Assembly: GCA_025403435.1 (NCBI GenBank)
Contig: CM046333.1
Location: 35,113,521 to 35,177,520, forward strand
Origin: Artocarpus heterophyllus
Lineage: Eukaryota; Streptophyta; Magnoliopsida; Rosales; Moraceae
Length of the DNA: 64,000 nt
Direction of reading: 5' to 3'
Below, one piece after another: positions 27,918-62,179 of this stretch (its first letter is position 1; every line of letters starts with the position of its first letter). The notes beneath the pieces are model-generated. The model made no database searches. It was not told where the DNA came from and saw only the letters and a program-made list of their open reading frames with translations. Position numbers and translations under genes: made by a program.

Positions 27918-30900
27918 ATGATAATTGATAAGAGTTGGATTTTAGAAAATGATCGTTTTTCGAACCGATACTAAAATGGTGCAATAGCATTTTTGGAAAG
28001 AGCATAAAACTACATGAATGAGGACGGAGAAGTTAGTTGCCCATGCATTAATTGTTTGAATGCAGCAATGCAAACATTACCAGTAGTTGGAGCTCATATA
28101 ATTGACAAGGGATTTAGTCAAACATATACTATGTGGATATACCATGGAGAATCTTATAACACACACATTTATGGTGATGAAACACATGAACAATCTACTG
28201 ACAACATGCGAAACGTCTTAGATGATGTAGTGGGGGCCAATAATCATGTTGAACCAGAAGGGTCAAGTCCAACCGAAGAATTCCAGTTGGGGCAGTTTGA
28301 AGAATTTTGTGCTAAGCTTGAGGCAGAGTTGAATCCTGGATGCGAAAGCTTTTCATCTCTGGGTTTTTTTTTTAATAAAAGTGATGCATTTAAATGTGCT
28401 TCACAGATGGACCAACAAATCTTTTGACTCTTTGCTAAAGCTTTTAAAGGATGCATTACCAGAAGGGAACAATATTCCTGCTTCACACTATAAGGCCAAG
28501 ATGAAGTTACGCAAGTTAGGTTTAGCTGATGAGACATTCATGTATGCAAGTATGATTGTGCTTTATTTTGGAAAGAATATGCTGATCGAAACACTTGTCC
28601 AATATATGGTGAGAGTCGATGGGTGAATCCGAATGTGAAGGGAAAGAAAGTGCCTCATAAAGTATTCAGATATTTCCCTTTAAAGGAATGGTTGAAGCGT
28701 TTGTATGCGTCAAGGCATGCTACAAGAGATATGAGATGGCATGTAAATGGTCGATCTATGCAAGGAGTTCTGCAACATCCGGTAAATGGAGAGGCTTGGA
28801 AGGCTTGGAAGGCATTTGATTGTAGGTATCCTGATTTTGCTTCTGAAGTAAGAAATGTTCGTTTTGGTTTAGCGGTTGATGGGTTTAGTCCGTTTGGAAA
28901 TATGAGTCAACCTTACAATATGTGGCCAGTTAACTTGTCAACATACAATCTACTTCCATCGCTTTGTACAAAGGAACCATACTGGATGTTGACTTTGTTG
29001 ATTCCGGGACCTAATGCTTCTGCAAAGGATATGGATGTGTTTTTTAGACCAGTTGTAGAAGAGTTGAAAGAGCTTTCGGAGCATGGATTGGTAATTCATG
29101 ATGCCTATGATAATACATCATTTAGGATGCGTGCTGCATTATTATGGACTATCAATGATTTTCCTACGAGAAGTAGTTTGTCAGGTTTGAGTGGCCAGGG
29201 ATACAATGCATGTCCAACGTGCAACATGCATACTCCTTCTAAGCGTTTAAAGAGTAAGACATGTTATACAAGCCATCGGCGATTCTTTCTAACTTCAAAT
29301 AGGACGAGGAGAGACAAACAATTTGATGAGGAGAGACTAAAATATTAAATCAGTTAGAACGTGTATGAAGTAGACTACCAGGCAAGCACATTTATTTTGG
29401 TGGGAAAAAACATAGGCGAGAGAACCCTACGAGCTGAACTAAACAAAAAAAGAGTATATTCTTTGAATTGGAATATTGATCAGATTTGTTGCTAAAACAA
29501 AACTTAAATGTCATGCATATTGAGAAGAACATTTGTGATAGCTTGTTGGGCACAATATTGAATATTGATGGGAAGTCAAAGGACACAAACAAGACAAGAA
29601 TGGATCTGGCCGACATGAAAATAAGCGATGAATTGCATCTTTATAAGGATGGGGATCGATGGATGAAACCTCATGCAGACTACACTCTAACTCCTATAGA
29701 GCAGAAACAATTTGGTGCCTTTATTAAATCTGTAAAGTTTCCTGATGGGTTTGTGGCAAATTTAAAAAAGAACACCGATACTGATGGCAAGATCTCTGGA
29801 CCTAAATCACACGATTGTCATGTGATCATGCAACATCTATTACCAGTCGGTATTCATCTATTTTTGAAAAAAGAGATCACTTATACAATTGTTGAACTTT
29901 GTTATTTCTTTCAACAAATTTGTTCTAGAACCTTAAAGATATCTGATTTAGAGAAAGCTGAAAACCAAATTGTCATAATATTATGCAAGTTGGAAAGAAT
30001 ATCTCCGCCTGTATTTTTCGATATCATGGTTCGCCTGGCTTTGCATTTGTCGAAAGAAGGCATGCAAGGGGGTCCTGTTCATACAAGGTAGATGTACCCC
30101 TTCGAGTGGTATATTGGGTCACTTAAGCAGTATGTTAGAAACCAAGCACGACCAAAAGAGTCAATTGCAGAGGCTTATGTTGTGAATGAGGCTTTGACTT
30201 TCTGTTCACGATACTTTCATGGTAACGAAGTTAAGTTCAATCAGCCTGAAAGGAACCTGCCTGATCCTAATTCTGCTTCAAAGAAAAACTTATTGGTCTT
30301 CCAATCATAATGCTGACCAATGGGAAAGATTGTAGCAACTTAATTAGATGAGCAATTAAGGAAGAAGGCTGAGTGGTATATTTTAAAGAATTGCCCAGAA
30401 ATCCGAAGATACATAGAGTAAGTTTAGCTCTTTAATTGTTAACTTTCTAGTACATAATATAACATAATTTTTATGAGACCCATTTCATGTATAGGGAACA
30501 CAAGAGTGAGCTTGAAATTACTTGTAGAAGAAACTTGACTAAGGTTCAGATTGATGAGTTTCCAGCGTGGTTTTACAAAAAGGTAAAAAATTATTTTATT
30601 TTTACCTTTTTAGGGAAAAAAATCATATTTAAAGATTTAATAACAATAATAGATTTCTCATTGTAGGTGTACAATTTACAAAAAAATCCTTCACCTGAGG
30701 CCACTGATGAATTGCTTGCCTTGGCGTCTGGTCCTAATGACACTGTACTATCTTACTTCGCTTGTGTGGTAAATAGGGTCAAGTTTGTGTGCAACAATCG
30801 TGATGTTCAGCAAAAAACACAAAACAGTGAGATTTGTGTACTGGGTGTTGATGACAACACATATTACGGTCGGCTAGAAGATGTATTGATACTCCGATAT

Positions 30901-31550: not shown

Positions 31551-33115
31551 ATGACTGGATCCGTTGCTACATGTGCTGGATTTTCTGAAGGTGCAGAACT
31601 TCCACCGGGGCCAAGAAGACTTCCAACAGATTATGAGTTAGGTATGACTGAATACAATATGTCTTCTATCAAATGTATTATAACTTTTATATAAAATCTA
31701 ACACTCTTGCGTTGTCTTTTTTTTTTAGTCCTTGCCGCCGGTAAGAAAGTTTGTGGATGCACAAAGAATAAGGATGTCCACAAGATTGTTGATGCTAGTA
31801 AAAGAAAACTTTCGATATTCCTAGACACTCAAGGAAAGGCATATAAAGGCTTAGGGGACAATGTAGCTCGTTTAAGTAATTGTATAAGTTAGGCGGTGTG
31901 ATCCAAAATTCCTCCATATTATGATAGTTGGAAGAAGGTTCTTGTAGTATACAAAGATCAAATTTTACCTCAAACACAGGTAATAATATTTCACATTTAT
32001 TTATAATATATTATTTTAGCGACCTTGTATTAATTGTGGTATTTATAATGAAATTACAAGATCTTTTTTATTTTGATTTGACTCTTATATCGGCGGTATC
32101 AATAGATCGTAATGCACAAGACATATATAAGGAAATGGAAAAATGACCTTCATGAATACTTCAAGCAATTGTTGGGGAGGGGGGTGCGGGGGCGCAAAAA
32201 AATGTAGTTAATGTGAAGAAGCAACGTCCCGACAATGTACGAACCCAAGCAGATTGGGAGGTTGCTTGTGATTGCTTTTGCAACAAAGCTTTTTAAGTTT
32301 AAAGTTATAAACTCTATTTTTGATGATCACTACATATATCAATATAACCTATTAATTTTAATAATTCATCTTTGTAATAGAAAAGGTCGGCGACAAATAA
32401 AAGAAACAAAGCAAACGTGAAGCAGCCAAGTCGTCATAGAATGCAATCGTATGCTAATTTGAGATATCAAAAGGTAGTAAATAAAAATTTATTAAACTAT
32501 GTTTCATTTTTCCTTTAAGATATGTATTGTTCTAATACAAGTCTAACACAAGTTTATCTCCTTTATAGAGAAATCCTGAGACCGGTGAGTTGCTTTCAAT
32601 TTTGAAAAATTGGTATTGGTGTCAGTGTCATCAATATTCAAATGACAGATGGGTTAATGACGCTGCAGAGGCTAGATATGTAAGTCATATAACATATTAA
32701 GTTTTAGTTATGAAATTTTGAGTTGGATTGTAATTTACTTTGTTAAATGGAATGTGCAGAATGAAATGCTTTAAATGCATACTCAACAAACCTAAGCTGC
32801 TGTTGCATCTTCTTCTGCTTCTAGTTCGGGCACATGTTAGATAACACATCTCATGAATGAAGAAGAGCAGTGAATGTGCTTGGATCGCACAGAGGGCATA
32901 GGAAAGGAGTGCGCTCGAGGATGAGAAAAGACATCTTTGCAGTAGCTACTCTTGAGGAGGCTCGTTCACAACAACCATAACTCCCTCCACAAGTACAACA
33001 ATGGATGGAGGAACAATCTCAGTATAACACGCAACAAAGTCAATACCAAAATCAAATGACGGCTATAATCAAATGTTTACTACCGGATTTAGATTTGCTA
33101 ATGCCTCCCCTGCTC
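31551..33115 (+). pseudogene. CACTA TnpA-like (Ptta/En/Spm) protein, 5' part, interrupted by an LTR element
   Basis: An ATG at 31551 opens MTGSVATCAGFSEGAELPPG, a start typical of TnpA-like proteins. Later pieces are KVCGCTKNKDVHKIVDASKR, YYDSWKKV and then QRPDNVRTQADWEVACDCF (about 32220-32275), which fits the plant transposase family PF03004. A final section reads MRKDIFAVATLEEARSQQP near 32920-32980. Several stops and a frameshift interrupt it, and introns are probable at 31640-31730 and 31980-32110. The proline-rich C-terminus is split at 33120 by an LTR element and resumes at 41317. In intact elements TnpA binds the subterminal repeats and works with Tnp2. Confidence 0.75.
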
Positions 33116-33120
33116 CACCA
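33116..33120. repeat. Target-site duplication CACCA, left copy
   Basis: The five bases before the 5' LTR are CACCA and are repeated exactly after the 3' LTR at 41312-41316. This fits LTR-element integration and fixes both ends of the element. Confidence 0.95.
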
Positions 33121-34553
33121 TGTGACACCCGTTATTCTCCTAAGGGTATTAAGGTAATTAGATTAATTACCTAGTATATATATAAAAAAAATCAGAAAAT
33201 CTCTCAAATTCCACTCCGATGAAAATCATCCGGTACCAACTGCACGCGAATCGAGGCGATTCAAACAGCAGTATCGGAGTCCAGAATGACGTTTTCAAGA
33301 ATGTATGATCTCTAGGAAGCATTCCTAGCCATTCATAGTCGCTCGAGGAGCACTACAGAGGATGCTTCGTAGATACAGCGAGATACAACTGGATCTGTTT
33401 TGCTTGGAGTTCAAGATCAAGGGAGTATGGAGCTAACGTTAATTGATTCCAGGATTAAGAGACTGTTGATAAGCTTGAAAGGTAGGGATTCTATTACTCA
33501 TTTTTGTGAGGTTTTTATAGAATTAAAATTGATTGTTTTGCCGCAATATATATATATCTATGTTGAACTGATATTATATGAGTATCACATATGAAACTAT
33601 GACATGGACTCGTCTTGTATTGTACGGCGAGGAACATAATGAATTGACACATGTTATAAATTGAGAAGCATGGTTAGGAAAACTGACTCTATTAATAATG
33701 ATTTAATATAGAGAAATGGTGAGACATGAAGAGGGCGGCGGTTACGTCCTTGGACATGAATACCCAAAAAGGTAAAATAGGAGGAAGGTGATGACGCTTC
33801 CTTGGGTTGAAAGTCCCAGAACACACTGTACAGGAATTGATTTGGTGAGGACTCGGGGCTTGATGTCCCCTCACCGGAACACCCTTGGAATGTTTATAGG
33901 GTGATCAAGTGCGCCCATTTGGGTTTCGATGAGTTGAGTGATACTCAATTTAACATGGATACCTAGGAACAATGATGATTGGTAATATTTGTATAAATGT
34001 GTAATTATGACACTTGGTAATGATTAACTACGGTATCCATAAGATGTGATCATAATAAACCTCATAATCTGGAATATGATGTGACTTACTAACCATGCAG
34101 ATTTTAATGTGGTAATGATAAAAACCTAAAGGTGAGTAATGGCTTTCTCTACTGAGCATAGTGTCGCTCATTCCCTTATGTTTATATCTTTTCAGGACTC
34201 ACTAAGTGTGAGGTGGCTACGAGAAATATAGTTGAGGAAGTGATGTAACTATATTACATTGGGACTGCTTCAATCGTTGAGAATGTTCTTCATGATAATG
34301 TAAGCATCAATTGTTACTTTCTATGACTGTATTACAATGTGTTGAAGGTTAAAATGATGATGACAACAGTTTATATTATTAAATTTAAGGTGCTACATTA
34401 AAACTGTGGTTTATTTGTCGTTTATATTTTTATTTTTGAGTTGAGAGTTTTCATTTAAGTCCCGGGCAAATTTTATTTTTAAGGTTTTACTTTTATTATT
34501 TATTTTTATTTTATCTCATTAAAAACTGTTAACCCCCATATAGGGGCGTTACA
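33121..34553 (+). repeat. 5' LTR (1,433 bp, with an internal deletion)
   Basis: Starts TGTGACACCCGTTATTCTCC and ends CATATAGGGGCGTTACA. Against the 3' LTR I count by eye about six substitutions over the shared ~1.43 kb. It lacks about 965 bp present in the 3' LTR: here AAAATCTCTCA joins directly to AATTCCACTCC near 33206. Confidence 0.9.
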
Positions 34554-34560
34554 GAATTTT

Positions 34561-34572
34561 TGGTATCAGAGC
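34561..34572 (+). other. Primer-binding site (initiator tRNA-Met)
   Basis: TGGTATCAGAGC lies seven bases downstream of the 5' LTR. It is complementary to the 3' end of plant initiator tRNA-Met, the usual primer for reverse transcription of plant LTR elements. Confidence 0.9.
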
Positions 34573-36142
34573 CTAGGTTCGGTTAACCTAGGGAGTGTAG
34601 CACCACTTTAAAAAAATATATTTTTGAGATGGTTTTGAAGCTGAATTTTCATTGTCATCATCAAAATGAACCTTCACATTGATTTATACAGTCTAGGAGG
34701 ATGTAACATGGAAAGGCCATAGAATGAAATACTAATGGTTATATGAGTACAATAATTATATAGAAGGAAAGTATTAATAGTTATGAGGGAATGATAATTA
34801 TATGGAATGAATTTATAAGTAGATTGTTTATGAGAGATTCGTATAATATTTGGATCTATAAGCATATCTAATTCGTATAAACGATGAGAAATTCGTGTAG
34901 ATACGAGAATTTAAGAGCCTTTTGTCTCGTGAAAAATAATAAAAAAATATAAGGCTTGATTTATTGATTTTAAAGTTTGGCATAGATATGCCAAATTTTT
35001 CCTAATTGATTCAAACCTAAGTAATGATTATGTGTGGATTCGATGGAGCACATAAGTATCAATATCTTTTCTTAAAAGTTCTATTTATTTGAGGAATATG
35101 ATATAAGTTGGGAATCATGGTATTGAATCTTGAGAGAGATAAATGTTAGACTTTTGGTCTGTTGAGACTGTGTAAAGTCTAGAATGCATGAATCTCAAAA
35201 ATTGGAATATTTTGTTACATACATTGTATTTAAGTGTATCAGTGAATCTTTATATATAGATGCAATAGAAAAATGATCAATAGGAGTTTCCTTAAGTAAA
35301 TCATAATACTTAAGGCACTTATAATAATTTTGGATAATTACGATAAAATGTTTAAGTTTTAGATGTTTAGATGTGAATCTTTTGGTTACCTACGGTTTTG
35401 TTATATGAGGAAATTCGATATTGTATAAGTAGAATTGTGGGGATTGTAGATGTTCTTAAGTAGTAACATCAAGTGTCTTTGTTCATTGATATGGTCTACG
35501 TTGAAAGACGTAAATCGTATTGATTTCAAGGTTAGTCACATTCTAAACCCTTGGTAGCATGATGATGAATCCATTGATAGATGTTGAGTATTAGGAATAA
35601 CATATGGGTGTATGCATTGTTCAATAAGGTTTTGATTAAAACAAAATTATTTGAGTTGCTGGATCATTCAGGAAGATCCTTGTTGTCGTTAAATTAGATT
35701 TGTTGTTCATAATTAACTTTATCTATAGTGGGCTTTAAATTGGGTTTAAGATTTATACAAATTGGTTTTCAATTTTATGTTTGTTATTTAACTCGTTCTA
35801 AATGTGTTAAGGCCCGAAACAACTTGACCATTTTCAACTTAGAACATTTGGGCCTAGTTCAAATCTTAAATCAGTTTGATTCACACTGTCTCTCCCACGT
35901 GGTTTCTATACGTGTCATATACAGTGGTTTAATTATTGTTTACATATACGTTTACTGTGCGTAAGACCTTATTTCTCCGAGTTCACTTTTTCTCTCTTAA
36001 TTTGTTATTTTCTCTCTAAATCGCAAATCCTCTTCTTTTTCATTAAAAATTCTTCTTTTCCTCTAAAAGAAGAAGGAATTCTAGGATTCTGCAATTTACT
36101 ATCTTAATTTTTCCTTTCTATTTACTCTTCTTTCATCTCATC
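34573..36142 (+). other. Leader region of the LTR element, no ORF
   Basis: About 1.6 kb of AT-rich DNA conserved in the second family member (60057-61657), apart from a ~30-base indel near 35660. The last 150 bases before the first ORF are CT-rich and resemble a plant 5' leader. A promoter for the downstream ORFs may lie here, but no element can be named. Confidence 0.5.
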
Positions 36143-36664
36143 ATGGACCCAAAGTACCAACACATGAGAAAGTATTTCCCATCACTCTCCCAAAAGATTC
36201 TCAGAAAGAAATATAAGGCTCGAATTACTCGGTTGTGGATTCTTATGCGTTTTGGCATCCCTTGTGATGTGAGAATGTTAATAGAGGGGAAAATCCGTCC
36301 GAGTGACTTTAGTCAAGATGTCGGTTTACCAGGAACAGGTACCAGTCGTAGTGCAATGAAAAGAAGAGCTCGTGCCATCGTGGTCACTTGTAACAAATGT
36401 GGAAGACAAAATTGTAACGGTAAATGTACTTCACCTGATTATATGTCAACGAATAGAGAGGATAAAATAAGGTTTTGTAGGGATGGACTTTCAAAGGAGA
36501 ACTTGGATAGCATCCATCCTCCTCTCCACGGTCACCCTAGTGGATATGTTCAAGGAGCTATTTTTAAACTCTGGCCCAAATTTTATGCAGAAAGACAACG
36601 CCTCAGGAATATGGTATTTTTAGATCCTGTTTGCCAAGCCATAAGAAAACTGGATGGGGAATAA
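36143..36664 (+). CDS. Basic, cysteine-rich 173-aa protein; putative nucleic-acid binder carried by the LTR element
   Basis: Intact ATG-to-TAA ORF without introns. The N-terminal 35 residues are strongly basic (KKYKARITRLW at 22-32). A short basic run, KRRARA (73-78), stands directly before a four-cysteine cluster, CNKCGRQNCNGKC (83-95, spacing C-x2-C-x4-C-x3-C), which could bind zinc. A conserved C-terminus follows. No signal peptide or membrane segment is seen. A basic run followed by a Cys cluster and then a short acidic/hydrophobic tail resembles the cysteine-rich nucleic-acid-binding proteins of some plant flexiviruses (carlavirus type). That is a resemblance judged by eye, not an assignment, and a divergent Gag knuckle is an alternative. 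A 168/173-identical copy lies at 61658-62179, and the nucleotide differences are mostly silent, suggesting a maintained protein. Confidence 0.7.
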   Translation: MDPKYQHMRKYFPSLSQKILRKKYKARITRLWILMRFGIPCDVRMLIEGKIRPSDFSQDVGLPGTGTSRSAMKRRARAIVVTCNKCGRQNCNGKCTSPDYMSTNREDKIRFCRDGLSKENLDSIHPPLHGHPSGYVQGAIFKLWPKFYAERQRLRNMVFLDPVCQAIRKLDGE

Positions 36665-37307
36665 GTCATCGCTCTATAAAGGTTATTTAGTCTTTGCTTA
36701 TTTGAAGCAGTTTTAGCTGATGTTCAACAGTTTGTGTTTTTCTTTTACTCAGAATATTTGCTTTTGTGTTTGAAATAATTGTGATTATTAGATTGATACA
36801 GTAAGTGTTAATATCTTATTTAATTTATGATTTTCTTAAATATATATATAATAAAATATATTATCTTATCAGACACGTTACATACGGTACAGTAATATGT
36901 TTGAATTTTGAAAAGCTTATCCAGATATTTCAAGATTTGTGTCTCAAATTTCAAAAGTTCTACAGTATTTGTCGTTTATATTAAATTTCTAGACTTGGTG
37001 TATATTTGTCAAAAAGTCTACAGTTGTGTCAAGAGGGTCTTCTGTCAAATTGTTCTCAATTGTCAAAAGTTATACAATTAGAGTCTAATCTTTTTCAAAA
37101 AGTGAATCAGATTTTCTGTAAACTATCAATCACCTTATCTTACTTTCTTATCCGCACAAGATTTTGTTTAAATCTTTGGATTACCTTTTCATTACCTACT
37201 CGTCTATCTCTTTAGCCCTTTTTGTATATTTCTCATCTTTAAAATCTCATGTAGAACCCGAAGTCTAAGTGGAGCAGATATTAAGCAACCACTTCTATAA
37301 ACCAAAT
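36665..37307 (+). other. Spacer between the two element ORFs
   Basis: AT-rich, conserved in the second copy (62180-62822). A frame without ATG (37006-37215) stays open in both copies, with one residue change between them. I do not call it a gene, because neither copy has a start codon. Confidence 0.45.
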
Positions 37308-37958
37308 ATGTCTACCTCCCAGTCCACGAAGAAAATAAAGAATGTCTGTGTCTTTTGTGGTTCCAGCCTTGGAAAAGATAAAGCTTATTTAGAAGCTGCA
37401 AATCACTTAGGGCAAGTCCTAGCACACAAGAAGATTAACATAATCTATGGGGGTGGTAGTATAAAAATGATGGAAAATATGGCACTAGCAGCTAGGTCTA
37501 GCGACGCTACTGATGTAAGAATTTGGCCTCATATTCCAGTTGAAGGAAACCTTTGTAAGGAAGCCATAGGTAAGGGAGAAGGAGTCAGGAGTATCCCTAG
37601 AAATTTTAAAGACATAATCTATAATTCTGATGCTTTTATAGCATTACCTGGTGGTCTAGGTACTCTTGAGGAAATATTCGTAGTTGCTTGTGGGCAATTA
37701 TTGGGCTTTTATTCCAAACCTTTGGGACTGCTGAATGTAAATGGTTTTTATGACGGTCTTTTGAAATTTCTAGATTACGCTGTGGAAGAAAACATCACTA
37801 CAGAATCGGAGAGACAAATCTTTGTTACTGCTTCAACAGCTGAGGAATTGATAGATAAAATGCAAATCATACATCCAGAATCTGACACTGCAACATCCAA
37901 GCTTGAATGGGAAAGGGAAAGCCGGGAGCGGCCAATTGATTTGAATCTCCATCTGTAA
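37308..37958 (+). CDS. LOG-type cytokinin riboside 5'-monophosphate phosphoribohydrolase homologue, intronless, within the LTR element
   Basis: The first ATG is at 37308; the frame upstream of it is open but has only GTG. The product is 216 residues, the usual LOG length. It has the Rossmann-like start VCVFCGSSLGKDKAY (13-27), the glycine-rich YGGGS (47-51) and the signature PGGLGTLEE (114-122), the PGGxGTxxE motif shared by LOG proteins and wrongly named lysine decarboxylases. LOG enzymes release active cytokinin base from its riboside monophosphate in the cytosol. Host LOG genes have several introns and this copy has none, which suggests capture through RNA. Odd points: the segment after the glycine loop is KMMENMA rather than the usual glycine-containing loop, and the conserved Arg-Lys pair upstream of SDAF (107-110) appears replaced (RNFKD). 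Activity is therefore uncertain, although the frame is intact. Confidence 0.85.
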   Translation: MSTSQSTKKIKNVCVFCGSSLGKDKAYLEAANHLGQVLAHKKINIIYGGGSIKMMENMALAARSSDATDVRIWPHIPVEGNLCKEAIGKGEGVRSIPRNFKDIIYNSDAFIALPGGLGTLEEIFVVACGQLLGFYSKPLGLLNVNGFYDGLLKFLDYAVEENITTESERQIFVTASTAEELIDKMQIIHPESDTATSKLEWERESRERPIDLNLHL

Positions 37959-38899
37959 TCTTTTTGTTTAATCTTTGGCATGTAGGCATGTGTGTCTGTA
38001 TTTTGTGTGTTACGAATAACCGTTTGCCTTATATTCTGTGTTTCTTGTGGTACGTTGTTGTTAAATCTTTTAGATTCATTGAGCCTAATGCCGGGATGGC
38101 TGGATACGGAGTACTTGATGCTCTCGAAACGCATCCTTCTTAAGGTCCGATCTTTTGTTTATCGATGTTTTTGTATCCTCTAAGCATGCATGATATGGAT
38201 AGCTGGTATACGGAGTGCCTTGTACTCTCGAAACGTATCCGTATTATGTTTGTAATGTGTAATATTCTGTTAATATTATGTGGAAGTACCAGAGTCAGTT
38301 ATGGGGATATTCCATATGAAATATGAGTATATTATTTGGATTGAATGTTTGTGTCATGAGGATAGCTGTTTAATGAAAAATATGTCGGGTTTGTCTGCAA
38401 CTCTGAGATTTCGTTTAATATCTCTATGAATAAGTTTAATGTATGGTTTTGAATAGAAGTGTTTGTGATATATGTTTTATGATTATGTTTTAGTTTATTA
38501 GTTGAGGTATGAAATCAAATATATTAGACTTTTCCTTACTTAAAAAGGAAAAGGAACCTAAAGATGAAATATATAAAATTTCTCTAGCAATCTCCTTAAA
38601 TGTGATTGTAAATCACAGTCCATGGACAATGAAGGACTGAAATCATGGTATGGTAAATATGTATGCCTGATCAGATTCTTAGACTATTATACGGTGTTAT
38701 AAGTTGAAACTTGTCAGAAATACTCTCATTGAGGGATTTAGGAGTAAGATTTATTATGCAAGTAAATAAGCGGAGATACGATGACTTAAATTTGGAGGAC
38801 AAACAACATTAACGGTTTAGACTCGGAATTGGAATCATAATGGAATTAAAATTTTTACTAGTATTGCTAGAATTGAAATTTCGAGGACGAAATTTCTTT
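37959..38899 (+). other. 3' non-coding part of the LTR element interior
   Basis: AT-rich, no ORF. It ends in TTTCGAGGACGAAATTTC and the polypurine tract. It is conserved in the second copy as far as the window reaches. Confidence 0.6.
38100..38241. repeat. Pair of ~37-bp direct repeats downstream of the LOG ORF
   Basis: TGGATACGGAGTACTTGATG then CTCTCGAAACGCATCC (38100-38136), and GGTATACGGAGTGCCTTGTA then CTCTCGAAACGTATCC (38203-38240). Both are retained in the second element copy near 63615-63760. They lie in the 3' untranslated part and their function is unknown. Confidence 0.75.
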
Positions 38900-38911
38900 A
38901 AGGGGGGTAGA
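38900..38911 (+). other. Polypurine tract of the LTR element
   Basis: AAGGGGGGTAGA immediately before the 3' LTR, the expected primer for plus-strand synthesis. Confidence 0.85.
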
Positions 38912-38913
38912 GC

Positions 38914-41311
38914 TGTGACACCCGTTATTCTCCTAAGGGTATTAAGGTAATTAGATTAATTACCTAGTATATATATAAAAAAAATCAGAAAATCTCTCAT
39001 AATTCGAAACTCTCTCTCTCTCTACTTTCTCTCTCTAAAAAAATTCTCTCTCTCTCCTCAAAGATCGTTTGAGACTTCGGCATCCGTTTTCGACACCTCC
39101 CGCACCAATGGAAAGCTCTCGACGAGCTGAGTCCAACGAGGTGCCGCGCCGCCCAAAACGCCGCCGGAGGAGACCACACGCGCCGCCCAAAGTGGCGGCA
39201 AAACCCATTTCTTTCCGACGAGATATCTTCGCCGTCCGACGTCCGATCGACGTGATTCTTGTTCCTACACGACCACCGTGATGAGAGGAACAAAACCCAC
39301 CCTTGGTGGCAGCTCAACAACCGCCGGATTGCTCTGCCCTCCTATTGCCGCCGTGCACCGCCGCCCCCATGGTGGAACTCCGCCTTGCCGGAGGAGGTGA
39401 CTGACACCACCCCTCCCAATGAGTTCAGAGGATCAAGGGGAGTAAAACCCCTCGATCAATTGCACGGAAGGAGCCGGTTTCGCCGGAGAACGGCCAACGC
39501 CGCCGTCAACCGCCGCGGGAGCCTCCGTTTTGGCTCTTCCCAGCCACGTTTCTTCAAATTGGATGAGGGGAAATGCTCATAGGAGGATGGGTAGCAAAAG
39601 CCCTCAGCCAATTTCAGGTTTCCATCGTCGGAGAATCAAGATCGGAGCTCATCCATTTCTACCGACGTTGTACTTCACGACCCGCTATGTTAGAGGCAGA
39701 ATTGGGTGAAATTGACCCCGCCATTGGACTCAGAAGGGTCGATTTAGGGGGGGTAGGCCCGAGCCCAGCTGCCAACAGACCCCGATTGACGCCGGTGAAC
39801 GACGGTCAAAGTCGGTCAACACCGGTCAACGGTGGTCAACGCCGGTCAACGGCCAGCCAAAGGCCAAATTGGGATTTTGTGATCCGGACCTCCGATCGAA
39901 GATCCGAGACCGCCTCCTGACTCATTTCGATGCTCTGGATGCAATGGTGACCTCCATTTGAGCAAATTCCACTCCGATGAAAATCATCCGGTACCAACTA
40001 CACGCGAATCGAGGCGATTCAAACAGCAGTATCGGAGTCCATAATGACGTTTTCAAGAATGTATGATCTCCAGGAAGCATTCCTAGCCATTCATAGTCGC
40101 TCGAGGAGCACTACAGAGGATGCTTCGTAGATACAGCGAGATACAACTGGATCTGTTTTGCTTGGAGTTCAAGATCAAGGGAGTATGGAGCTAACGTTAA
40201 TTGATTCCAGGATTAAGAGACTGTTGATAAGCTTGAAAGGTAGGGATTCTATTACTCATTTTTGTGAGGTTTTTATAGAATTAAAATTGATTGTTTTGCC
40301 GCAATATATATATATCTATGTTGAACTGATATTATATGAGTATCACATATGAAACTATGACATGGACTCGTCTTGTATTGTACGGCGAGGAACATAATGA
40401 ATTGACACATGTTATAAATTGAGAAGCATGGTTAGGAAAACTGACTCTATTAATAATGATTTAATATAGAGAAATGGTGAGACATGAAGAGGGCGGCGGT
40501 TACGTCCTTGGGCATGAATACCCAAAAAGGTAAAATAGGGGGAAGGTGATGACGCTTCCTTGGGTTGAAAGTCCCAGAACACACTGTACAGGAATTGATT
40601 TGGTGAGGACTCGGGGCTTGATGTCCCCTCACCGGAACACCCTTGGAATGTTTATAGGGTGATCAAGTGCGCCCATTTGGGTTTCGATGAGTTGAGTGAT
40701 ACTCAATTTAACATGGATACCTAGGAACAATGATGATTGGTAATATTTGTATAAATGTGTAATTATGACACTTGGTAATGATTAACTACGGTATCCATAA
40801 GATGTGATCATAATAAACCTCATAATCTGGAATATGATGTGACTTACTAACCATGCAGATTTTAATGTGGTAATGATAAAAACCTAAAGGTGAGTAATGG
40901 CTTTCTCTACTGAGCATAGTGTCGCTCATTCCCTTATGTTTATATCTTTTCAGGACTCACTAAGTGTGAGGTGGCTACGAGAAATATAGTTGAGGAAGTG
41001 ATGTAACTATATTACATTGGGACTGCTTCAATCGTTGAGAATGTTCTTCATGATAATGTAAGCATCAATTGTTACTTTCTGTGACTGTATTACAATGTGT
41101 TGAAGGTTAAAATGATGATGACAACAGTTTATATTATTAAATTTAAGGTGCTACATTAAAACTGTGGTTTATTTGTCGTTTATATTTTTATTTTTGAGTT
41201 GAGAGTTTTCATTTAAGTCCCGGGCAAATTTTATTTTTAAGGTTTTACTTTTATTATTTATTTTTATTTTATCTCATTAAAAACTGTTAACCCCCATATA
41301 GGGGCGTTACA
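38914..41311 (+). repeat. 3' LTR (2,398 bp, full form)
   Basis: Starts TGTGACACCCGTTATTCTCC and ends CATATAGGGGCGTTACA. It contains a segment of ~965 bp (about 39000-39964) missing from the 5' LTR. That segment has CT-rich microsatellite (39011-39060), then GC-rich sequence with long but unconvincing open frames (39069-39920), and a cluster of GGTCAA motifs. Apart from the missing segment the two LTRs are almost identical. Confidence 0.9.
39804..39849 (+). promoter_or_regulatory. Cluster of five GGTCAA (W-box core, reverse) motifs in the 3' LTR
   Basis: GGTCAA occurs five times in 46 bases within an 11-bp-like tandem unit CGGTCAACRCC. Its complement TTGACC is a W-box, the binding site of WRKY transcription factors in stress and defence responses. 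The cluster lies in the LTR segment missing from the 5' LTR. Whether it drives transcription is not known. Confidence 0.5.
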
Positions 41312-41316
41312 CACCA
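41312..41316. repeat. Target-site duplication CACCA, right copy
   Basis: Identical to 33116-33120. The host frame resumes immediately as a proline codon run (CACCACCTCCG). Confidence 0.95.
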
Positions 41317-41409
41317 CCACCTCCGTCTGTTATGTCTTCCTATCCACCTCAAGAAGAAAACAATGACGATGACGATGACGATGATGAAACCGCTAATTTA
41401 GGAGATTAG
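41317..41409 (+). pseudogene. CACTA TnpA-like protein, 3' part
   Basis: Continuation of the coding sequence split at 33120: a proline-rich stretch, then PPQEENNDDDDDDDDETANL and GD, ending in TAG at 41409. Proline-rich followed by acidic tails are common at the end of CACTA TnpA-like proteins. Confidence 0.75.
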
Positions 41410-44216: not shown

Positions 44217-45347
44217 ATGGCAGAAGAAGATCAAACTCGCAGCAGTACTGCCAGCAGCGGTAGCACCGCTGCCGCCGACGAAAGTAGACAGAAAAAGGCC
44301 CTCCTCGTACTGAACTGCATCCTCCTGACGATCGGGAACTGCGGGGGCCCACTCATCATGCGCCTCTACTTCCTCAACGGAGGCAAGCGCGTCTGGCTCT
44401 CCAGCTTTCTCGAGACCGGCGGCTGGCCCATCATCCTCCTCCCTTTAACCTTCTCATACTACCGCCGCCGCCGCCGTCACTCTGCCATCTCCGCCACCGC
44501 CGCAGCTCCAAAATTTTTTCAAATAAAACCGTTCCTCTTCTTCGCCTTTGCCTTCATCGGCGTCGTCACCGGCTTCGACAACTACCTCTACGCCTACGGC
44601 GTGGCCCGCCTTCCCGTCTCCACCTCCTCCCTCATCATCGCGGGCCAGCTGGCCTTCACGGCCTTCTTCGCCTACTTTCTCGTCAAGCAGAAGTTCACGT
44701 CGTATTCAGTAAACGCCGTCGTACTGCTGATTGTCGGAGGAGCCGTGTTGGCGCTCCACTCGAGCGGGGACAGGCCCAAGGGGGAGAGCAGCAAGGAGTA
44801 CGTGTTGGGGTTCGTGATGACGGTGGCGGCGGCGATGCTGTACGGGTTCCTCCTGCCGTTGATGGAGCTGGTGTACAAGAAGGCGAAGCAGAGGATAACT
44901 TACTCCCTCGTGTTGGAGATTCAGATGGTCCTGTCCTTCTTCGCCACTGCTTTCTGCACCATTGGGATGATTGTTGACAATGATTTCAAGGTTCGTTTTG
45001 GTTTTTTCTTATTTTTGTCTTCATATTTGTTGATAATAAAGTCAGTCGCTATTGTTTCTTTATATATTTCAAACTTATACATCTATGCACCCTTTTTTAG
45101 GGTGTTAAGTGCAGTGGTTAAAGCTACTTATAAAAGTTTTATATTATTTTTAACTAAAATATTAATTAAGATGAGCTTTGTCAAACAAATTTTTTATAAA
45201 AAAAAAGGTCAATTACAGCTGTTTTCTCCTCGTCTGATTCTCATCTTAGGATTCGGTTTCTCACCTTTATTGTCCTCACTCTTCTCTTAGTTAGTGGGAC
45301 CACATTAACGAAACTTTATTCTAGAACTAGTTCACACTAATGTTGTG

Positions 45348-45385
<38 letters not shown>

Positions 45386-45788
45386 TGTCTTTCTTAGCAT
45401 CATTATTAATCGCTACATGGGATTATTACCATATGTTGATTACAATGATAGGACCTAGATTTTATTTATTGAGGACAAATGTAATTTTTTCCTCTTATTA
45501 TCAATAGTTTTTGCCAAAATTTACCACCGATAGAGAATAGCTGTTTTAATAGTCAAGATTTATTGTGAACATAATGCTGTATCATCTATTGAAAAATTAC
45601 ATACCAAACAGTTAACATATTAATTTAATGACTAAAACAAATCTTCTCCTATGGTTAAAAATTATAAAATTCCTTTATTTTATTATTTTCAGTTCGGGTA
45701 ATAAAAGATTCTTTTAGCTGTTGTATTTTTGTGCGAGCAATGCAACACAATATTGCTCCCACTTCAAGTTTTCTTTTAAAGGAAAGCT

Positions 45789-45828
<40 letters not shown>

Positions 45829-46778
45829 TCTTCCTTGTCGTTTTCTTAGGACTTGAGAGGCGCAAGGGGCCAACCGGCCCAATAATTCCATGAGAACAAA
45901 TTCGAAAAGAAATGATTGGACTGCAGGGTAAAGTTCACGAGTCTTTTTAATTTTGTCTTTGAAGCTTATTCTAAACGTGTTGGACTTTTTAGAGAAAACG
46001 TGAGAATTTAGACAGTAACCGGTGCTTTCAACTATTCTATCATCTGTGTGTGAGTATATAAAAATGTGTTATATTTTATGTTTTGATTTTTTATCTTTTA
46101 AAAATATCTGTCACTTGACCATAAAAAATTCAAAAAATATATAGTTTGTTTGAAAACTAAATTAAAACTTGAAATTAAAGCTTAATCGTAATAACGTTTT
46201 ATATTATAGAATATATTTATTTTATATTGTAACGTATGAAAGCTACACACGGTTAAAACTTTAAAGTAAACACTTGATTTCAAAGCCCACTAACAAAATT
46301 TAAAACAAGCTAATATTCAATTTGATCAATGATGATATGGTTTAATTCTTATGCCTTAATAAACCAGTTTTTTTTTTTAAAAAAAAAAATTTTGCAGGCT
46401 ATTCCAAGAGAAGCAAAGAACTTTGAGCTAGGAGAAACCAAGTACTATGTGGTGCTTGTGTGGAGTGCAATAATCTGGCAAGGTTTCTTCTTGGGAGCAA
46501 TAGGAGTCATTTTCTGTGCCTCATCTTTGCTGTCAGGAATTATGATTGCCGTTCTTCTATCGGTGACTGAAATCCTGGCTGTTATTTTCTACAAAGAGAA
46601 TTTTAAAGCTGAGAAAGGTGTCTCCCTTGTACTCTCTTTCTGGGGCTTTGTCTCCTACTTTTATGGTGAGATCAAACAAAACAACAAGAACAAGAAGACG
46701 CAGCTGCATAACCCAGAAACAGAAATTACTCAAATTGAGAATACCCCCAAACCAGAGAGAGAGGTTCCAAATCCATGA
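44217..46778 (+). CDS. Purine permease (PUP family) transporter, two exons
   Basis: Exon 1 is 44217-44990 (258 codons, donor AAG then GTTCGT). Exon 2 is 46398-46778 (acceptor TTTTGCAG) and continues in frame for 126 residues, giving a 384-residue protein, normal for the family. The intron is 1,407 bp and contains a TA microsatellite and a 39-base A-run. The protein is mostly hydrophobic, with about ten predicted membrane segments. Family hallmarks are [20 protein letters not shown] and [20 protein letters not shown] in exon 1, and [19 protein letters not shown] and [13 protein letters not shown] in exon 2. PUP proteins of the drug/metabolite transporter superfamily are proton-coupled importers of adenine, cytokinins and related compounds at the plasma membrane. 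The substrate here cannot be told. The frame is intact and GC content is high, especially in exon 1, as for a functional host gene. Confidence 0.9.
44991..46397 (+). other. Intron of the purine permease gene
   Basis: Begins GTTCGT and ends TTTTGCAG. It contains a (TA)n tract (~45349-45379) and a long A-run (~45796-45835). Reading frame from exon 1 runs on into it for about 100 codons, which is not coding evidence because family homology stops at the donor and resumes at exon 2. Confidence 0.85.
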
Positions 46779-48641
46779 GAACAAAATTAGATACAGATTA
46801 CTATTATACTTAGTGGCATCTGTAGATGCAAAAAAAGAAAGGGAAAATATGCAAATTCCACAGGTATTCATGCTCAAACTAATTTTCTTTTCAATTAGGA
46901 AAAAAATAATTAATAATTGGATATGGTCAGTTTTTATTTGCATGGTACCATTAGGAAGAGGGTTCCTCCTCTTTTTCAATCTCCTGAAAATAATGAATAG
47001 ATGCTTTGAAGCTATGTGGTGCTTGTTTGCAGTAACAATGAATTATTATAAGTGCAATTTGTTTGCAGTAACAATGAAAAGTGGAGTTTTATTATTAGAA
47101 GATTTCTATGGTAGATATCTGTTTCTTTAACAGTCAGATCAACGTGCACCACTAATGGGGGAATAGCCACCAAAAACCCTTATTACTGTTATACCTTTCG
47201 TCCTTTTCTGCTGTGAAACTTAACATATACCTTGCTAAACCATACGAGCCAATTTCCCAATTTGTTTTAGAGGTTAAGAACCTTGAGCCTAATTTAGTTT
47301 TGGCCCTATTAAATTGGAAGAAATATCACATGAATTATGCAAAACAAAAAGGATCACATGCAATTGTTTACAAGTAAATTTATCTACCCACCAAAATGAG
47401 GAAGGTATGGTATTGTAGAAGGGACTCAAAATGAATAAATAAATAAAAACGGCTTGTAGATAATGTGCCAAGTGCAATGTTCACCGTAGGTAACGAAAAT
47501 CAGGCAGAGGAGATTAAGCTACTAATTTAGTAGCTTACTGCTGAATGGAACTTTACCGAGAGAATTTGTTTTTTTTTTTTAATAAGAAACAAAGATTTCA
47601 TTGAATCACAGAACGAAATGACCAAAGAGGAAGGAGAACGAACCCTTAAAGAAACAAAAAAACTAAAAAAAAAAAAAACAAACAAAAAAAAAACTATAGA
47701 AAACAGAAACATTTAAAACAAAAACAAAACCGCAACTAAAAAGAACAAGGAGCACTCTAATCTGTCAAAAACTACATTCCAATCCCTCAAAGAATCAGAA
47801 AAGGAAAACCCATGAAAGTCTTAGACGTAGATGCCCAAATAGTGGTTTTCCAAATCTGCCAGCCCCATGCATCTTCAGTATCAAAGATTCGTTTATTACT
47901 TTCAATCCACATTGCCGAAGTGACGGAGTGAATAACCACTTTCAACAGAATCTTTCTTCGCTTATTCCTATCGACCATAAAGTTGCCCCTAATTAAATCA
48001 TCAATGTTTGTTTTGAGGGACAACCCATATGAAACCAAAATAGGCCAAATGTTGCCAGCGAAAGAACAGTAAAGAAAAATTTGATCAGGGGTTTCATAAT
48101 GCTCCCCACATAAAACACATCAAACCCGGAGAGAGATAAAGGTAAGGCTTTCTTCTTTGCAATATATCTCGAGTGTTTCAGTTTACCAAGACCAAGTAAC
48201 CTACTGAAAACTTTAATTTTACTTGGAACCAAAGATTTACAGATAAATTTATGAAAAGGAACAGGAGAAAGGGAAGAAGATTGGTCATCAATAAGGAATT
48301 TGAAAAAAGATTTTGCAAGAGAAGAGACTGGATTTCTCCAACTCCTAGACCCACCTGTCTAAAGAGAACGAACACACCCGTACCTCATCCAGAACGGCTA
48401 ATAAAGCTAGCACCTCCCCTAACTTCCTCTCGCTAGGATTCTAATACAATGGAGATTCTAAGAAATGGTGTTGTTCAGATCAAGAGAATAAAAAGAAGAA
48501 ATTGGAGCATTGTGTGATGATGAATTTCTAAACAAACAAGGAAACCTACTAGCAAAGCCTACCCCTCCCACCCACACATCTTCCTTAAATCTCACTCCCC
48601 TCCCTTCTCCCACTCTCAACTTGGCATGAACTTCAAAATCG
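46705..48641. repeat. Segmental duplication, copy B (partner 4347-6321)
   Basis: Collinear with 4347-6321, covering the permease C-terminal codons, its 3' flank and the LINE fragment. Copy B is the one attached to the intact gene, so it is likely the source. Confidence 0.85.
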
Positions 48642-50537: not shown

Positions 50538-53352
50538 TCAAATTACCCCATCTAAACAACATATCTTCTTAAGTTTGCACACCAAGTTCTCTTCACCCGG
50601 TACTTCAAAACTTTGTGGCTGTTTCATGTAGATCTCCTCCTCCAAATCACTATGGAGAAAAGCTATATTGACATCCAACTGTTCCAAGAACAAGTCCTCA
50701 TTTGCCATTAGTACAAGTACCATCCTGATCATGGTTAGCTTCACCACAGGAGAAAAAATCTCGTTAAATTCGATGCACTCTTTTTGCTGAAAGCCTTTTA
50801 CCACCAGCCTTGTCTTATACTTTTTGCTGCTATCACTTTCGTCTTTAATCCGGTATGCCCACTTGTTGTGCAAGGCCTTTTTGTCCTGTGGCAACTTTGT
50901 CAATTGTCATGTCTGATTGGACATTAAGGAATCCATCTCATCCCTCATGGCTAACTCCCACTTGACTGAATCTTCAGCCTCCACGGCTTTATTATAGCTC
51001 TCTGGCTCACCTCTGTTGGTCAACAAGATGTAATGCAGAGAAGGAGAGTATCTCTGCGGCGGTCTGATGGTCCTGCTAGACCTCTGACTAGTGTGGCATG
51101 AGTCCTCTGGTTTCCTTTTGGAGCTATGTCTTCTTAGTTTTCAACATCTGGATTTTGCACCTCCACTTCAGGAAGATCCTTCAATGGAATCACCTCAGGC
51201 TTCTTGTCTTCAGAACCTGAACCCCTAGAGTCAGTGTTGTCTCTGTCCTTGTATAAAACACCTTCATTGAAGATCACATCCTTGCTCCTAATAATCTTCC
51301 GATTTTGGTCATCCTAAAGACGATAACCAAACTCAAGTCCACCATACCCAACTAGAAAACACTTCTTTGACTTGGCATCAAGTTTACTTCTAGCAGCAGG
51401 ATCAATGTGAACATAGAAAACACACCCAAACACTCTCAAGTAAGAGATATCAACCTTTTTACGGCTCCAGACTTCTTCTGGTAGCTCAAACTTCAGTGGT
51501 GTGGATGGACTTCTGTTGATTAGATGAGTGGCTGTATTAATTGCCTTAGCCCAAAACGTCTTTAGCAACCCTACATGCAATCTCATGCTTCTGGCACGCT
51601 CGTTTAAAATCCTGTTTATCCTCTCAGCTACCCCATTCTATTGTGGTTTCCTTGGAATGGTTTTTTTCATCTTTATTCCATTCTCAGCATAGTACCGCCT
51701 GAAGTCATTATCTAAATATTCTCCCCCATTGTCAGACTGCAAGCATTTCACCTTCAAATCTGTCTCATTCTCCACCATGGCTTTCCTTCTCTTGAAAGCA
51801 TCAAAGAGATCAGATTTGTTTTTCAAAAAGTAAACCCATACCTTCATGCTTGAGTTATCTAGAAACGTCACATAGTAATTTGTGCCACTAAGGAAAGTCA
51901 CCGACGCAGGCCCCCATACATCAGTGTAAACTAGCTCCAATTTCATAGACTTAGGCTCTCTACCTATTGTTGAGAAAGTAACTCTCTTCTGTTTCTCAAA
52001 GATGTAGGCTTCACACAAACTGTGATCAACAGTTTTCAAACCTGGCAGTTTTCATTTACAGTGAAGCACCTTCATTCGCTTCTCACTCATTTGACCGAGC
52101 CTATAATGCCATAGCTCAATATTGACAGCAGAATCAACAACTGTTATGGTATCTCTGCAACTAGAGTTCATGTAGAGAGTTCTAGCCTTGCATCCCCAAG
52201 CAACAACTATCGCTTCTTTAGTGACTTTCCAACCTCCACAATTGAAGGTCACTTTAAGTCCTTCGCCATCCAGTTGCCCCACCAAAATCAAGTTGCGCAT
52301 TAGTTTAAGAACATGTCTCACCTTATGAATCTTACACATAGACCCATTAGGCATTTTTAAACTGACATCTCTAATGCTAACAATATCCAAAGGTTCTCCA
52401 TCAGCAAGATAAACCTTACCATAATTTCCAGCAACATAATTCTCCATGGCGGTGTGCAGTGGTGTGGAATGATGCTCCTGAATCTATCACCCACAAATCA
52501 AAAGAACTGTCAATAGACAAGATTAAGGCATCCTGTTGCTCTTCAGTGGCGGCGTTAGCTACATCATTATTCTTGTCTTCGTTCTTCCTTGGAGCCCTGC
52601 AGTTCTTCTTCAAGTGGCCAGTCTTCCTAGAATTCCAACACTCCATAGTTCTACCGTTCTTCGACTTACTTCTCTCATTCCTCGACTTGCCTCTCTTGCC
52701 ATTATCCCTATTGGAATGCCTCTCAAGTTTCCTGCCTCTATTATCAACATTAAGGGCCGAGTTCGACGTTGAGGCTTCACCTGAGTCTTTCCTGCAAACT
52801 TCTTCCGCAAGAATAGAGTTTTTGACATCAACAAACTTCAGTTTTGCATTCCCAAGCGAATTTGTAATGGCCACCCTCATGGGTTCCCAACTATTCAGTA
52901 AGGAGGCCAAGAGGATTAGGGCATTGATCGCATCATCGAATTTAATCTCTACCGAGACCGATTGGTTCAGGAAGGTGTTGAAACTGTTTAGATGCTTTAC
53001 TACCGAGGCACCATCAGGCATCTTTAAATTAAAGAGCTTCTTCATGAGATTACCTTGTTGTTGGCTGAGAGCTTCTCATACATCTCTGACAAAGCTTTCA
53101 TCATCCCAGTTGTAGTATTCTCCTTCGCAACGTTGTGGGCCACGTTCTTTGACAAGGTCAAACGGATCACACCTAGCACCTGTCTATCAAGGAGATTCCA
53201 CTCCTCATCCTTCATGCCTTCAGGCTTATTATCCAAGGACAAGTGCAGTTTTCTGTTGTAGAGGTAGTCTTCTACTTACATCCTCCAATAGGAAAAATCC
53301 AAACCATCGAATTTGATGATACCTGCTGTCGAACCTTCTTCTCCCATCATCG
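50538..53352 (-). pseudogene. Ty1/copia gag-pol polyprotein, degraded and 3'-truncated
   Basis: Read on the minus strand, the Gag part starts near 53352 (MMGEEGSTAGIIKFDGLDFS). It contains a damaged zinc knuckle, CWNSRKTGHLKKNC, at about 52640-52600. Next come the protease motif WVIDSGASFHTT, the pre-integrase LWHYRLGQMSEKRM, the integrase core with VYTDVWGP and LQSDNGGEY (51640-52040), and the start of reverse transcriptase with KTRLVVKGFQQKE and EQLDVNIAFLHSDLEEEIYM (50903-50538). Domain order (integrase before RT) is that of copia elements. Several frameshifts and stops are present. The RT core with its catalytic aspartates, RNase H and the 3' LTR are missing at 50537. It is an inactive relic. 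Confidence 0.85.
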
Positions 53353-60044: not shown

Positions 60045-60056
60045 TGGTATCAGAGC
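60045..60056 (+). other. Primer-binding site of the second element
   Basis: TGGTATCAGAGC, seven bases after the LTR, identical in sequence and spacing to the first element. Confidence 0.9.
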
Positions 60057-61657: not shown

Positions 61658-62179
61658 ATGGACCCAAAGTACCAACACCTGAGAAAGTATTTCCCATCAC
61701 TCTCCCAAAAGATTCTCAAAAAGAAATACAAGGCTAGAATTACTCGGTTGTGGATTCTTATGCGTTTTGGTATCCCTTGTGATGTGAGAATGTTAATAGA
61801 GGGGAAAATCCGTCCGAGTGACTTTAGTCAAGATGTCGGTTTACCAGGAACAGGTACCAGTCGTAGTGCAATGAAAAGAAGAGCTCGTGCCATCGTGGTC
61901 GCTTGTAACAAATGTGGAAGACAAAATTGTAACGGTAAATGTACTTCACCTGGTTATATGTCTACGAATAGAGAGGATAAAATAAGGTTTTGTAGGGATG
62001 GACTTTCAAAGGAGAACTTGGATAGCATCCATCCTCCTCTCCACGGTCACCCTAGTGGATATGTTCAAGGAGCTATTTTTAAACTCTGGCCTAAATTTTA
62101 TACAGAAAGACAACGCCTCAGGAATATGGTATTTCTAGATCCTGTTTGTCAAGCCATAAGAAAACTGGATGGGGAATAA
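61658..62179 (+). CDS. Basic, cysteine-rich 173-aa protein, second copy
   Basis: Intact ORF of the same length as 36143-36664, with five residue differences seen by eye (positions 8, 21, 82, 99 and 149). All four cysteines of the CNKCGRQNCNGKC cluster (83-95) and the KRRARA run before it are kept. Of about twelve nucleotide differences from the first copy, roughly seven are silent, more than expected for neutral change. Being open in an element whose LOG is broken, it may be the ORF that matters more for the element, or simply lucky. Its function is unknown; nucleic-acid binding is suggested only by the basic and Cys-rich segments. Confidence 0.7.
   Translation: MDPKYQHLRKYFPSLSQKILKKKYKARITRLWILMRFGIPCDVRMLIEGKIRPSDFSQDVGLPGTGTSRSAMKRRARAIVVACNKCGRQNCNGKCTSPGYMSTNREDKIRFCRDGLSKENLDSIHPPLHGHPSGYVQGAIFKLWPKFYTERQRLRNMVFLDPVCQAIRKLDGE

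Follow-up and report, generated by a model that had tools for sequence, protein, structure and literature searches.

The window analysed here is a stretch of 64,000 nucleotides of Artocarpus heterophyllus (GenBank assembly GCA_025403435.1, contig CM046333.1, positions 35,113,521 to 35,177,520 of the forward strand), and all window coordinates below follow the numbering of this whole stretch. At 33121-41311, on the plus strand, lies a recently inserted long terminal repeat (LTR) element, whose interior encodes two proteins: one belongs to a family resembling the nucleic-acid-binding proteins (NABPs) of certain RNA viruses and the other is derived from LOG, a cytokinin-releasing enzyme. The element belongs to a recently active LTR family that has no gag-pol in the copies read, and the same pair of genes is also found in a gag-protease family with a different primer binding site (PBS).

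Direct LTRs, a target site duplication (TSD), a PBS and a polypurine tract (PPT) were all found, so that the element anatomy described in an earlier note on this DNA is confirmed by alignment and sequence matches. The TSD, CACCA, stands at 33116-33120 and, identically, at 41312-41316. Over 1432 aligned bases the 5′ LTR (33121-34553) and the 3′ LTR (38914-41311) show 6 mismatches; the latter includes a stretch of 965 bases absent from the 5′ LTR. The divergence K of 0.0042 places the insertion about 0.16-0.30 million years ago at assumed rates of 1.3e-8 and 7e-9. Between the LTRs follow the PBS TGGTATCAGAGC (34561-34572), a non-coding leader (34573-36142) with 34-45 stops per frame, open reading frame (ORF) 1 of 173 amino acids (36143-36664), a spacer (36665-37307), ORF2 of 216 amino acids (37308-37958), a tail that is non-coding in a stop-to-stop frame scan (37959-38882) and the PPT GAGGACGAAATTTCTTTAAGGGGGG (38883-38907), the PBS and PPT being located by sequence match. 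We take this PBS to be of the initiator tRNA-Met (iMet) type and this PPT to be chromovirus-like. The iMet PBS, the PPT of the form GAGGACGAA..GGGGGG and the ends TGTGACACCC..GTTACA, which are presumably the marks of Tekay-like chromoviruses, together give the element a Tekay-type signature.

Apart from ORF1 and ORF2, the interior (34554-38913) has no sense ORF of 100 amino acids or more; an antisense ORF of 119 amino acids overlaps the LOG gene, and the leader, spacer and tail hold no stop-to-stop frame longer than 83 codons. The interior gave no tblastn match to two gags of different types and a protease, all from other loci, reverse transcriptase (RT) and integrase remnants not being searched for; in the same search the NABP and LOG of another family did match. 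The earlier statement that the element encodes no retroviral proteins thus holds for gag and protease. For the region 33100-41400 Rfam gave no match, nor did a scan of the whole window for tRNAs, and a bacterial promoter scan, the model of which is ill-suited to plant DNA, gave no excess.

The element is one of many. Genome searches with ORF1 and ORF2 gave 5814 and 6121 first-look candidates, respectively, of which the best 150 were scored in each case; these are top scores and not a random sample. Internal stops are absent from 149 of the 150 scored matches for ORF1 and likewise for ORF2, and the matches are spread over many contigs. The family thus comprises well over a hundred copies in the genome, though no copying enzymes of its own were found. 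The earlier note had argued for a family rather than a single accident from two copies in the window; the idea that only these two exist failed with the 150 scored matches per ORF. A single segmental duplication as their source was also rejected, the matches lying on many contigs and the copies with resolved ends having different TSDs. The order leader, ORF1, spacer, ORF2 and tail is found in all 15 copies fetched from the score lists, as the note's fixed order would have it, and both frames are open at full length in 14 of them (the exception, L009, has a stop in the NABP gene). A strict pattern delimited the TSD and both LTRs in six of the 15, the other nine being lost to that pattern or to the 10-kb locus limit. 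The six have LTR mismatches of 0/1970, 1/1975, 0/1965, 0/1968, 1/1975 and 2/1966, and their TSDs comprise five different sequences. Some copies of the family thus have identical LTRs and differing target duplications. In a search blind to the ORFs, using the LTR end and the PBS, four copies were examined (ranks 2, 3, 7 and 9 among the best 40 of 516 candidates); both ORFs are intact in three of these LTR-picked copies, and ORF1 is interrupted in the fourth. Two of the family loci, L014 and L022, have LTR or internal pieces past the element ends, and in L022 a LOG-tail-LTR arrangement upstream of the element suggests a tandem with one common LTR.

The second copy in the window, also on the plus strand, begins at 58073 and extends past the window end. 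It has a 5′ LTR (58073-60037) whose 5′ part is unlike that of the first copy, a PBS found by sequence match (60045-60056), an intact NABP ORF (61658-62179) 97% identical to that of the first copy and a LOG gene (62823-63474) with a frameshift in an A-run near 63117. The LTRs of the family have a 3′ part in common and at least two different 5′ (U3) modules among copies (window 38997-39962 and 58146-58910).

Is the pair confined to this kind of element? A host-type LOG query having the ordinary RKAEM motif, P0125, was searched against the genome and its 150 best matches were scored; each is one contiguous stretch of 179-205 of the 212 residues, which indicates intronless LOGs, and these crowded host LOG genes out of the list. 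In all five P0125-type loci fetched, NABP sequence precedes the LOG on the same strand, with an NABP ORF of at least 120 amino acids in four. At locus L024, a PBS TGGCGCCGTTACCGGGGAAG and an ORF recognised as gag (E 5.6e-9) are followed by NABP and LOG. An NABP query close to L024, P0002, was treated in the same way, and many of its 150 best matches contain stops. The two lists of best 150 matches, in which unpaired matches carry no information, combine into at least 89 same-strand NABP-LOG pairs within 5 kb, and 85 of the 89 lie at 1175-1257 nt, in the same order and with the same spacing as in the window family. Four further loci show gag and protease frames, a gap of about 0.6 kb, NABP and then LOG. 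The gag and protease of this second family are recognised at E 1.4e-21 and 9.2e-7, a zinc-knuckle match of its gag being below threshold, and an Asp-type PBS pattern matched in three of five loci. Such a PBS is presumably a mark of Athila-like elements, to which we take the second family to belong. An Athila RT was not found in five loci, where the gap of about 0.6 kb from protease to NABP leaves no room for it; RT-bearing relatives may exist. Because PBS and PPT differ between the window family and the second family, the NABP-LOG pair sits on two LTR-element backbones. The capture of a host gene proposed in the earlier note stands in that the element has a LOG-derived gene; this gene is not private to it, the pair occurring in the gag-protease element as well.

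A further pair, at L025 (G000:C17:24136800-24146799), shows 76% and 75% DNA identity to that of the window; no PBS was recognised there and LTRs are not definable, and the locus is flanked by a direct repeat of 274 bp, 81% identical. The LOG and NABP database matches P0074/P0150 and P0123/P0141 lie on contigs of identical length (8723 and 4511), perhaps shared contigs of other species. Contigs of equal size among LOG and NABP matches number nine: six below 2 kb (chance mean 3.6), two at 2-20 kb (chance mean 0.385) and one whole chromosome. As a sign of linked LOG and NABP in other species this is suggestive at best.

What kind of protein is the first of the pair? ORF1 has a basic KRRAR patch followed by C-x2-C-x4-C-x3-C. 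A first protein search with it gave 15 relatives, and a second search using the alignment of those 15 gave 855 proteins at E<=0.01; among the 120 listed, the named ones are all from plants (Populus, Xanthoceras, Acer, Hibiscus, Rhamnella and Orobanche). When 62 family members, ORF1 included, were scanned singly, 55 matched the Pfam profile Carla_C4 and 53 matched Viral_NABP at E<=0.01 (best 5.8e-8 and 1.1e-8, respectively). In a detailed scan of 10 relatives the gathering score was exceeded by five for Carla_C4 and by four for Viral_NABP, and the NABP of L025 exceeds the Carla_C4 cut-off. The KRRA(K/R) patch and Cys motif both fall within the matched stretch of 27-90 residues. Judged by these profiles, the ORF1 family resembles the NABPs of carla- and vitivirus-type RNA viruses, the window protein itself weakly, and the putative nucleic-acid-binding neighbour of LOG in the earlier note agrees with this.

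The relation to viruses might be reversed, the betaflexiviruses having acquired an old NABP of plants or retroelements, or the Cys-rich basic domain might have arisen by convergence. Such origins would suit the 855 relatives (every named source in the 120 listed is a plant), the shortness of the matched stretch and the outcome of a Foldseek search of ORF1 against viral models, which had no significant match (best, a Cherry mottle leaf virus protein of 15 kDa, E 0.11); convergence is opposed by E-values reaching 1e-8 for two separate Pfam families in the same region, and we consider this alternative, in its two forms together, unlikely. For the likeness to viral NABPs, the Foldseek match is the weakest of the supports. 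Relatives of NABP and LOG were also sought in the viral contigs of IMG/VR, and none was confirmed. ORF1 could also be a nucleocapsid-like factor for packaging or nuclear export of the element's own RNA, not for counter-defence. The basic patch and Cys motif would fit such a role, as would the place of NABP next to gag in the second family, and in C. elegans the LTR element Cer1 is described as having a protein required for RNA export. The sub-threshold zinc-knuckle match of the second-family gag keeps this alternative in play; the profiles matched are, however, those of viral NABPs and not of retroviral nucleocapsid, and we regard it as unlikely. A reading of ORF1 as a plain gag zinc knuckle was dropped, the profile scans giving no gag match.

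ORF2 matches PF03641 (E 6.1e-22), and its top PDB match is the Arabidopsis LOG At2g37210 (2a33), with 153.5 bits by sequence and E 2.9e-16 by model. The motif PGGxGTxxE is kept as PGGLGTLEE. In the alignment to 2a33, N stands at the catalytic Arg position and F at the adjacent Lys position, and GGGSIGLMG of 2a33 has become GGGSIKMME; the three LTR-picked copies have IPKNF and GGGSIKMMV, the window copy IPRNF, and otherwise they agree. In LOG of C. glutamicum, Arg99 and Glu122 have been proposed as catalytic, and adenine is bound by Met96, Lys100 and Glu121; replacing active-site residues by alanine nearly abolishes activity, except in S19A (PMC4979012). Because the Arg position is N and the GGGSxGLMG loop is changed, cytokinin activation by the window LOG is unlikely, and the LOG of the window subfamily is predicted probably not to be a working cytokinin-releasing enzyme. 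The "intact LOG-type cytokinin gene" of the earlier note therefore stands as an intact frame, its active site being altered in the window subfamily.

A working LOG, maintained by the element to activate cytokinin and favour division of the cells expressing it, would be in line with the PF03641 match, the LOG fold and 2a33 as top PDB match by both sequence and model. Sister loci also retain the Arg position and GGGSLGLMG: the catalytic Arg is kept in L024-L026, L028, L030 and L032 (His in L027), TPERH in L026 and L028, which are loci of related LTR families, and GGGSLGLMG in L026; for the gag-bearing family, the LOG of each of the three loci displayed reads MPERI. It is countered by the N of the window subfamily at the position of C. 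glutamicum LOG Arg99 (PMC4979012), by the altered nucleotide-binding loop and by the absence of the Lys of the RK pair from every fetched locus whose motif was displayed, and it seems improbable. The changed segment is confined: in 15-codon DNA windows, identity to L026 is 51-76% over codons 46-108 of LOG and 80-93% in the rest, the segment having dN 0.48 and dS 0.62. Compensating frameshifts behind this segment were ruled out, there being no indel relative to L026. In a LOG tree of 39 hand-chosen rows the window LOG sits on a very long branch (1.55), and host-type proteins are all to one side of a 100/99 branch.

ORF2 ends in IDLNLHL, which has the form LxLxL. Of 6475 LOG relatives found, 120 were listed, and 107 of these have this form within their last 12 residues, for example as LDLSLRL. 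It occurs in none of 23432 interior 12-residue windows and is absent from six of the seven relatives having an RKAxM motif. In the ORF2 model, residues 196-216 have pLDDT below 50. The EAR repression motif can take the form LxLxL (PMC6479872), and a C-terminal "motif 8" has been published for host LOGs (PMC11593424). The C-terminal LxLxL of ORF2, in a segment modelled as flexible, resembles the TOPLESS-recruiting EAR motif.

Are the two genes kept up by selection? Ratios of nonsynonymous to synonymous change (dN/dS) were obtained by NG86. Between families, where dS was computable, they are 0.14-0.24 for NABP and 0.13-0.28 for LOG. The NABP of the window gives 0.12 and 0.18 against L026 and L027; the window and the three LTR-picked copies with open frames (the fourth, with its interrupted ORF1, excluded) give 0.15 for NABP and 0.32 for LOG, and 24 copies chosen by protein score give 0.125 and 0.33. 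Ratios below 1 and open frames are signs of upkeep for both ORFs, as the earlier note had supposed. The ORFs might instead be inert passengers, intact merely through the youth of the copies. The 0-2 LTR mismatches in the six of 15 fetched loci with resolved ends would allow this, and so would the LOG ratios among close relatives: the window LOG gives 0.49, 0.49 and 0.54 against its nearest sisters L026, L027 and L028, which means weaker constraint there, and these three give 0.55-0.72 among themselves. The low between-family ratios of both genes, those of the LTR-picked copies and the existence of NABP relatives with full-length frames down to about 40% identity argue the other way, and we find inert passengers quite improbable. 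The ratios of 0.55-0.72, together with one of 1.09 for NABP between L026 and L027, are read as drift of dead copies.

The last 200 bases or so of the leader (from about 35940) are promoter-like with a CT-rich 5′ UTR, and the outline is similar in other NABP families. Upstream of NABP, L024, L025 and L030 have TATAAA...CTGTGCAT and a CT-rich stretch in common; of these, the second part and a CT-rich stretch recur at a similar position in the window (CTGTGCGT) and in L028 (CTGTGCAT). The spacer is more conserved than the ORFs between the window and the three LTR-picked copies (about 99% identity). Repeats of TTGTCAAA, a pattern picked after inspection, are present in all eight spacers tested. 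In sets of 300 shuffles, no more than 8 reached the observed count for seven of the spacers, and 24 did for L028. Perhaps ORF1 and ORF2 have separate promoters. As a separate observation, TTGTCAAA(A)GT repeats lie 5′ of the LOG start on both backbones (window 36949-37076; L024, L025, L026, L029 and L030) and adjoin CTACAGT in some families. A W-box reading of the spacer repeats was abandoned, GTCAA showing no excess in most spacers, and they are retained merely as a common repeat.

How might such an element spread, and what could its cargo do? The explanation that we favour, and hold to be just about probable as a whole, is that of an element copied in trans, with a cargo acting on the host and a gene pair spreading as a module. 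A Tekay-like chromovirus partner would recognise the LTR, PBS and PPT and copy the element, and each cargo gene would be driven by its own promoter. The cargo would work on the host to the benefit of the element. The NABP-like protein would bind nucleic acid and might dampen RNA silencing or alter transcription, like the cysteine-rich protein of carlaviruses; that of potato virus M suppresses silencing within and between cells (PMC10219291). The LOG-derived protein of the window subfamily would perform no cytokinin-releasing catalysis and would probably be a binding protein, the flexible LxLxL tail of which could recruit TOPLESS-type co-repressors. The pair would move between LTR-element lineages as a module. 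In a bolder and tentative form, which we think possible while leaning against it, flowering plants would harbour LTR elements with a transferable counter-defence kit of two genes, a silencing-suppressing NABP and a catalytically dead LOG adaptor with a TOPLESS-binding tail, and this kit would switch retroelement lineages and drive bursts of elements unable to copy themselves.

Several observations weigh against the explanation that we favour. No autonomous chromovirus partner was found in the genome search by LTR end and PBS, among the four copies examined. The window ORF1 scores below the curated cut-offs, with E 0.0093 and 16.4 bits for Viral_NABP (gathering cut-off 23) and E 0.24 for Carla_C4; an MCM_OB match (E 0.063) ranks between the two, and the structure model of ORF1 is poor (pTM 0.37). 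An Arg one position before the expected site is present in the window LOG (Lys in the three LTR-picked copies), and with PGGxGTxxE and its Glu kept, some activity of ORF2 is possible. The raised dS in codons 46-108 makes recombination with another LOG a possible cause instead of adaptive change. The LOG of the gag-bearing family ends in DWDLSL, without LxLxL; the LxLxL tail is thus not universal. To these are added the LOG ratios towards and among the nearest sisters, the NABP ratio of 1.09 and several between-family dS values above 1, which are unreliable.

The surroundings of the element in the window contain other remains. Pieces of a purine permease (PUNUT) gene lie at 44217-46778, 3 kb from the element. 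Some PUNUT-type purine permeases carry cytokinins, and the proximity is probably a coincidence. A diverged direct duplication (4599-6321 and 46961-48641, about 42.3 kb apart) shows 87-96% identity in the pieces shown. Remains of a CACTA-type transposon lie at 28014-30091 (Transposase_21, E 3.7e-72; DUF4218, E 3.6e-16), and those of a Copia element, with gag and integrase pieces, at 51638-53045 on the minus strand.

Through these elements a gene of RNA-virus type is linked with a large family of plant genomes. One member of the pair is of viral type and could suppress silencing, and the pair shows signs of selection and stands on two backbones in one genome; counter-silencing encoded by a retrotransposon thereby becomes testable. 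The LOGs also form a natural series, from some that are catalytically plausible to one that is probably dead and still changes slowly.

How does this system compare with those already known? The elements of Citrus and Populus bearing LOG/YgdH, treated by Steinbauerova and colleagues in 2011, are reportedly Athila-like. They have in common with the elements described here a LOG-family domain within LTR retrotransposons, and an Athila-like type fits the second family. The presence of LOG (YgdH) domains in Ty3/gypsy elements is published for Citrus and Populus; in the source consulted no NABP partner is mentioned, and the consensuses were found through RT (PMC9289625). The window family differs from them in that no gag-pol was found, in its PBS and in a LOG without the catalytic Arg. 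According to the same text, extra ORFs of plant LTR elements are mostly without known domains (PMC9289625). Among the open-access literature searched, the viral-type partner, its pairing with LOG and the presence on two backbones were not found. TR-GAG and LARD elements are non-autonomous LTR elements without pol. They share this lack with the families described here, the second having gag and protease only in the loci read; these families differ in having two conserved cargo genes. The NABP, or cysteine-rich protein, of betaflexiviruses (PF05515, PF01623) has the same KRRA(K/R) patch followed by a Cys motif, and most members of the plant family match its profiles. The plant proteins, in contrast, are encoded by retrotransposons in high copy number, have 173-197 residues with a conserved C-terminal half outside the match and are of putative function. 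In LTR elements of bdelloid rotifers, the same types of extra ORF recur in different retroelements, one of them from RNA viruses; these are animal elements with gag and pol, their ORFs are env, GDSL esterase and exonuclease, and the accessible text describes no fixed pair of genes (PMC5408684). The m6A demethylase of orchid Ty3/gypsy elements is likewise a cargo enzyme of a kind also present in flexiviruses and retained by an LTR element, whereas it is a single gene of demonstrated activity, in elements found through RT (PMC9289625).

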